Below, piece by piece: positions 57,289 to 57,774 of a stretch of 64,000 nucleotides of DNA. Position 1 is the first letter of the stretch; each line of letters starts with the position of its first letter. The notes below the pieces were generated by a model. It was not told where the DNA came from and ran no database searches. It saw only the letters and a list, made by a program, of their open reading frames with translations. Location: the NCBI RefSeq assembly GCF_011759375.1, contig NZ_JAARML010000004.1:682001-746000 (forward strand), given 5' to 3'. Source of the stretch: Paraflavitalea devenefica. Lineage in GTDB: Bacteria; Bacteroidota; Bacteroidia; Chitinophagales; Chitinophagaceae. Made by a program: the position numbers and the translations under genes.

Positions 57289-57476
57289 GATTGGGGTTAT
57301 TCAATTGTCGTAACAGTGTCACAACAATCAGCTTACCATAATCAGCTCTTTTATTTTGCAGGAGGTAGTCCTGCCATAACAATATAGTAAGTGTCCCATT
57401 TACTGCAGAGGCCACCTGGCATAATAAATCCTGGCTGTTTTGTGATAAAAACCGCTGATTTTCGTGAAATGGGTCA

Positions 57477-57575
57477 ACTATAGCTTTGGTATAGCGTAGG
57501 TATAGCTTAGGTATAGAGTTCCCATAGTCCAGGTATAGAGTATCTATAGAGTATCTTTAGCTGACCTATAGTGAA
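57477..57575. repeat. 11-bp-period array with TATAG core
   Basis: Nine units start at 57477, 57488, 57499, 57510, 57521, 57532, 57543, 57554 and 57565, each exactly 11 bp. Eight of nine have ATAG at positions 4-7 and the ninth has TTAG. Units at 57488, 57499, 57510 and 57532 all begin GGTATAG. It is intergenic and close to one helical turn per unit. Confidence 0.85.
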
Positions 57576-57774
57576 CCCTACCCTTTGCTCCTTTATTCCG
57601 ATACGATGTTTCAATTTTTCCTGGTCTCTTTTTTGTCCATTTTTCGTTTGTCTGCCAACTTCCACGCAAAGTAGCTAATCCTGCAACGATTCCCCATGCG
57701 GATGATGATATATGCAAAAAATGATTACAAATGATAACAAATACCTGCCGCTTACCAATCACAACCATAATATT

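Follow-up and report, generated by a model that had tools for sequence, protein, structure and literature searches.

An 11-bp tandem array of Paraflavitalea devenefica, probably orphaned from the 5′ control modules of a multigene protein family

The intergenic 11-bp array analysed here very probably belongs to an orphaned control module, of the kind that lies 5′ of the genes in a multigene protein family. It lies in a 64,000-nucleotide stretch of the P. devenefica genome (the window, contig NZ_JAARML010000004.1, positions 682,001 to 746,000). Our best overall explanation, that the window carries such an orphan and that arrays of this kind are cooperatively bound DNA operators, is put forward tentatively, at slightly less than an even chance. 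The following features were recognised, in window coordinates:

57415..57745 (limits approximate), strand unassigned: whole dispersed element, A1 subfamily, from BLAST and the alignment of copies.
57434..57455, + strand: imperfect conserved hairpin, stem 57434-57441 with 57448-57455 and one pyrimidine mismatch, from model R1 and covariation.
57476..57574, + strand: nine-unit 11-bp array with cores TATAG/CATAG/TTTAG, from direct reading, TRF and a shuffle test.
57666..57697, − strand: degenerate promoter remnant, with TACTTTGC at −7 for TAnnTTTG and ATGGGG at −33 for the TTTGG of other copies, from the alignment of sister copies.
57698..57745, − strand: AT-rich short repeats of the AAATGATAAC type, putatively upstream repeats, in the same place as the 9-10 bp repeats of other promoters.

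The array is real and far above chance. Its cores begin at 57479, 57490, 57501, 57512, 57523, 57534, 57545, 57556 and 57567 (seven TATAG, one CATAG and one TTTAG, spanning 57479-57571), a step of 11 bp throughout, and the nine exactly spaced units with a TAG triplet of the original prediction thus stand; our phase begins each unit one base earlier than the 57477 given there, which has no consequence. TRF reports period 11 (also 22) at this position, and the region scores 62/88 at period 11, whereas 1000 dinucleotide shuffles reach no more than 50 (mean 38.8) over all periods from 5 to 24, and no more than 44 at period 11 alone. Also as predicted, no gene covers the array, which is flanked by a yciI-like gene (YCII domain, PF03795) on one side and a Peptidase_S13/dacB gene on the other, the nearest named relatives of the latter being from Niastella and other Chitinophagaceae. 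A coding repeat was rejected, given that the 74-aa minus-strand ORF belongs to no family and that copies differ by single-base indels.

The search for TATAG at 11-bp spacing proposed with the prediction finds such arrays in the same genome and in all four congeners. At the dacB locus, the array is absent from three congeners, in which the YCII gene is a near neighbour with other genes between, and from the fourth, in which the YCII gene was not found within 1.5 kb. The array at the window site is thus lineage-specific, and conservation applies to the array family, not to this site. Neither is the array unique, an outcome that would have spoken against the prediction, since it forms the middle of a dispersed element that spans about 330 bp and has some ten other copies in its own genome. 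BLAST aligns 57415-57740 with C2:1710193-1710519 (88% over 330 bp), and further copies match at 98% and 93% over 192 bp. Three TATAG cores at 11-bp spacing yield 49 overlapping matches (about 20 places) in the 8.7-Mb genome, versus 2 for the reversed pattern. Copies differ in unit number by whole units, and the genes that flank them are diverse. The same genome holds a second dispersed array family, composed of TATAGAGCTCT followed by GATAATCCGGG units, of which seven out of eight copies have a gene of the same orientation some 45-225 bp upstream, in the manner of a 3′ UTR element (L001, L008, L011, L018, L024, L035, L037).

An imperfect hairpin, with the consensus GCTGTTTT-loop-AAAACYGC and one mismatch, stands before the array. 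In the window it is followed by a T-run on the + strand (57459-57462), and model R1 matches C4:739430-739484, which corresponds to window 57430-57484, with an E value of 7e-8. At E 0.1, the covariance model of the hairpin retrieves 21, 12, 10, 20 and 5 copies in five congeneric genomes. Among 55 distinct copies, five of the eight pairs have changed on both sides (21 cells versus 4.6 shuffled, 0/500), a figure that leans in favour of the structure to which the alignment was fitted; partners slid by 1-3 columns score lower. Sister species keep the hairpin with different array units, and despite these differences the strongest tandem period beside it is 11 in 59/59 copies examined. When aligned by phase, the units have in common a loose core, SYAYRS, that is (C/G)(T/C)A(T/C)(A/G)(C/G), with phases 5-8 nearly free; its local version is TATAG. 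Outside the genus, the leader gave a single match in 119 genomes, without an adjoining array, which we take as chance. Dissimilar leader elements also stand in tandem, 170-350 bp from one another and in the same orientation (G000 C2:608058, 608405 and 608672; G001 C13 and C1; G002 C1:7785487). A viral origin of the leader was discarded, the five pattern matches in viral contigs having no arrays and the associated protein no phage match.

That protein, of about 250 aa and with a start like MAKQINRHIKLRGTIDDISFYKSQDGF, recurs beside element copies in the five genomes (G000-G004), and in five copies (G000, G001, G003 and G004) the hairpin lies about 99 bp before its start codon. Searches of Pfam, PHROGs, NCBIfam and PDB gave no match to it, and it has no recognised DNA-binding domain and no relative among phages; a partial relative is found on one Marivirga plasmid. 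Protein searches put the family at 29, 17, 18, 14 and 22 genes in the respective genomes, with 33 in G000 when a profile is used, and find it in 29/80 Chitinophagaceae genomes. When members are searched independently of the element, the top period in the 600 bp before in-genus genes is 11 in 44 out of 49. An 11-bp array scoring at least 40 is found within this distance in 36/49 in-genus family genes versus 18/637 ordinary genes; some eight members were first met via the element and ordinary upstream windows hold more coding DNA, caveats that fall far short of explaining the gap. Outside the genus, 6/27 family genes have a strong upstream 11-bp array. Arrays of the window type, with TATAG cores, precede family genes at C2:1328958 and C2:691516, while many element copies have no family gene nearby. 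Several members (L273, L272, L310, L028) have as divergent neighbour a gene for a small hydrophobic protein (MQSPTPPFFAKLRNWGLILAAVSGA...).

Unit sequence follows the protein to some extent. Between nearest cross-genome protein relatives the unit similarity is 7.09/11, versus a mean of 5.53 and a maximum of 6.13 in 1000 permutations; over all pairs, protein distance and unit similarity are weakly correlated (rho 0.12-0.15). Taken together, these values suggest that the units change rapidly in sequence but stay within broad types. One such type, TTACTACTGCC, lies ahead of MAKVISPFKLSGSLGD-type genes in three species.

Most copies have a promoter match on the strand that enters at the far end of the element and passes through the array to reach the hairpin: TTG-N19-22-TAnnTTTG, the Bacteroidetes −33/−7 consensus (PMC6847099), occurs there in 36/55 copies, and at least TAnnTTTG in 44/55; full matches have a background rate of 0.11 per kb per strand in intergenic DNA. 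In compact forms, 122-135 bp separate promoter and hairpin, and short repeats of 9-10 bp are found upstream of the promoters. The order of an intact module is upstream repeats, promoter, 11-bp array, hairpin, about 100 bp and start codon, in which the promoter match and the hairpin-gene distance are observed and transcription is predicted from them. The flanking hairpin, the opposite-strand promoter and the gene family with such arrays in its 5′ regions had no place in the original prediction. The window copy has no full match to TTG-N19-22-TAnnTTTG and, with both boxes altered, is probably silent. Having lost gene and promoter match, it is probably an inert or decoy site.

What the array does in intact modules can be proposed with less assurance. 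Spacing that stays constant while the sequence drifts, together with a short alternating core always in the same phase, fits a cooperatively bound DNA operator, a mechanism that we regard as possible though short of probable. The original prediction held that one unit per helical turn would present the core on one DNA face to a cooperatively bound protein. The spacing indeed remains constant as sequence diverges, with the degenerate core at a single phase, the pattern expected of a helically phased binding array. The single face itself fares less well: at 10.5 bp per turn, successive units of an 11-bp repeat are rotated by about 17 degrees, so that one face requires a protein setting its own twist. 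Cooperative protein binding with one site per turn is a plausible candidate mechanism. Approximately one protein subunit would bind each 11-bp unit, at the SYAYRS core, and the occupied operator would control transcription starting beside the array, a regulatory role that is predicted, as is the binding. The 11-bp step would be kept because the subunit spacing is fixed, and differing unit sequences would insulate paralogs from one another. The binder could be a shared protein or the product of the family itself, acting by autoregulation; the latter identification is doubtful.

In an alternative scenario the array would act as RNA, within a 5′ leader or a small RNA, its 11-nt units being sites of an RNA-binding protein and the hairpin ending or stabilising the transcript. 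Given that the array is downstream of the inferred start, and so inside the transcript, an RNA role fits this arrangement equally well. The promoter at the far side, on the strand that traverses the array, the compact forms with only 122-135 bp between promoter and hairpin, and the covariation of the hairpin all point the same way. Against it, the folding energy of the inferred transcript is unremarkable (z about +1 to −2.3), the T-run of the hairpin is on the strand opposite to the promoter, and non-Watson-Crick pairs are more often G-T on that opposite strand (11 vs 4). Neither did any curated Rfam model match, one sub-threshold match to a eukaryotic snoRNA being taken as chance. We consider an RNA-level role unlikely overall. 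A stable RNA fold of the array itself was rejected, with z near zero.

A mobile element, with the arrays as subterminal transposase or initiator sites, the hairpin as a single-strand end and orphans resembling MITEs, would account for a dispersal that is lineage-specific, for the absence of the window array at the orthologous locus, for dissimilar elements grouped in the same orientation and for the diversity of flanking genes. The combination of hairpin and 11-bp repeats also recalls the pMV158 origin (PMC9943647). Nevertheless, terminal inverted repeats and target duplications were not found in the aligned copies (inspected by eye, with inexact limits), no transposase recurs beside copies, and neither a promoter nor a fixed distance to a start codon is expected of ends alone. 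We consider this reading improbable. The three Y1_Tnp genes, which also count against it, have no 11-bp arrays within 1.5 kb, and mobilisation of the RAYT/REP kind was rejected on that account.

Arrays of this period are a wider property of the genus. Genome-wide period statistics rest on 864 kb (103 kb intergenic and 761 kb coding), in which 16-23 period-11 arrays, depending on threshold, are intergenic and none is coding; periods 10 and 13 give 0-1 arrays in the same intergenic DNA. Their unit sequences vary (ACCCTAAGATG, TTAGGCCATTC, AACCATGTGTC, TTACTATTGCC, TTACAGCGACC and others). They are frequent in the genus, with 17 in 864 kb, 4 in 200 kb and 1 in 60 kb; at the same threshold, two other members of the bacterial family gave none in 200 kb and 140 kb, and a few occur in other Chitinophagaceae. 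Some form long palindromes in which each arm is itself a run of 11-bp units (own genome, C1:85709, 223900 and 326572; C2:1645637 and 1890011). In the 864 kb, 7-bp arrays are intergenically as common as 11-bp ones (20 vs 18, same threshold) and are also found in coding DNA. That the arrays are neutral minisatellites, made by slippage and read by nothing, would suit the whole-unit changes and the common intergenic 7-bp arrays, but is very improbable given the abundance of period 11 beside the near absence of 10 and 13, the phase and core shared by unlike arrays, and the link to one gene family.

Several known systems have a comparable layout. As in ParR/parC, direct-repeat arrays stand beside a promoter; the parC repeats of plasmid R1 are also of 11 bp, and in Clostridium perfringens the parC repeat sequence is family-specific and sets specificity (PMC9426499). 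The arrays described here are, in contrast, chromosomal, in many copies and accompanied by a hairpin; no ParM/ParR genes were seen beside them (neighbours read by eye, part scanned), the recurrent neighbour being the undescribed family, whose protein matches no ParR model. CarH/CarA operators are likewise tandem 11-bp direct repeats at promoters with a short degenerate core, nnnnTnnACAn (PMC9304148). However, CarH sites, at carotenoid genes, consist of three to five repeats, whereas here 14-33 paralogs per genome have diverging units, whose consensus is SYAYRS and not the TnnACA core. The double-strand origin of pMV158, with RepB, joins a hairpin to three 11-bp repeats in tandem, spaced by one helical turn (PMC9943647), but it is a plasmid replication origin and the present arrays are longer and variable; no RepB-type initiator is linked to them, the undescribed family being the sole recurrent gene among the neighbours of the copies examined. 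Finally, the BrickBuilt MITE of Porphyromonas gingivalis, also in Bacteroidota, is a dispersed leader with tandem repeats, a tail and promoter activity (PMC4596501); its 23-nt repeat has one sequence, and the available part of its description gives no link to a gene family. The layout resembles the first three systems and, as a dispersed element, BrickBuilt; membership in none of the four was found.

A more ambitious view, in which each family member reads its own hypervariable array in a paralog system spanning Chitinophagaceae, with fixed spacing and drifting sequence insulating dozens of paralogs and with orphans as decoys or a trail of mobility, is at present speculative and rather unlikely. 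In any case, the arrays account for some of the intergenic repeats in these genomes, and a large gene family unmatched in databases, with 14-33 paralogs per genome, is now tied to a single regulatory architecture. Its approximately 100 natural array variants, fixed in spacing and drifting in sequence, make the co-evolution of binder and repeat site, as well as the insulation of paralogs, directly testable.
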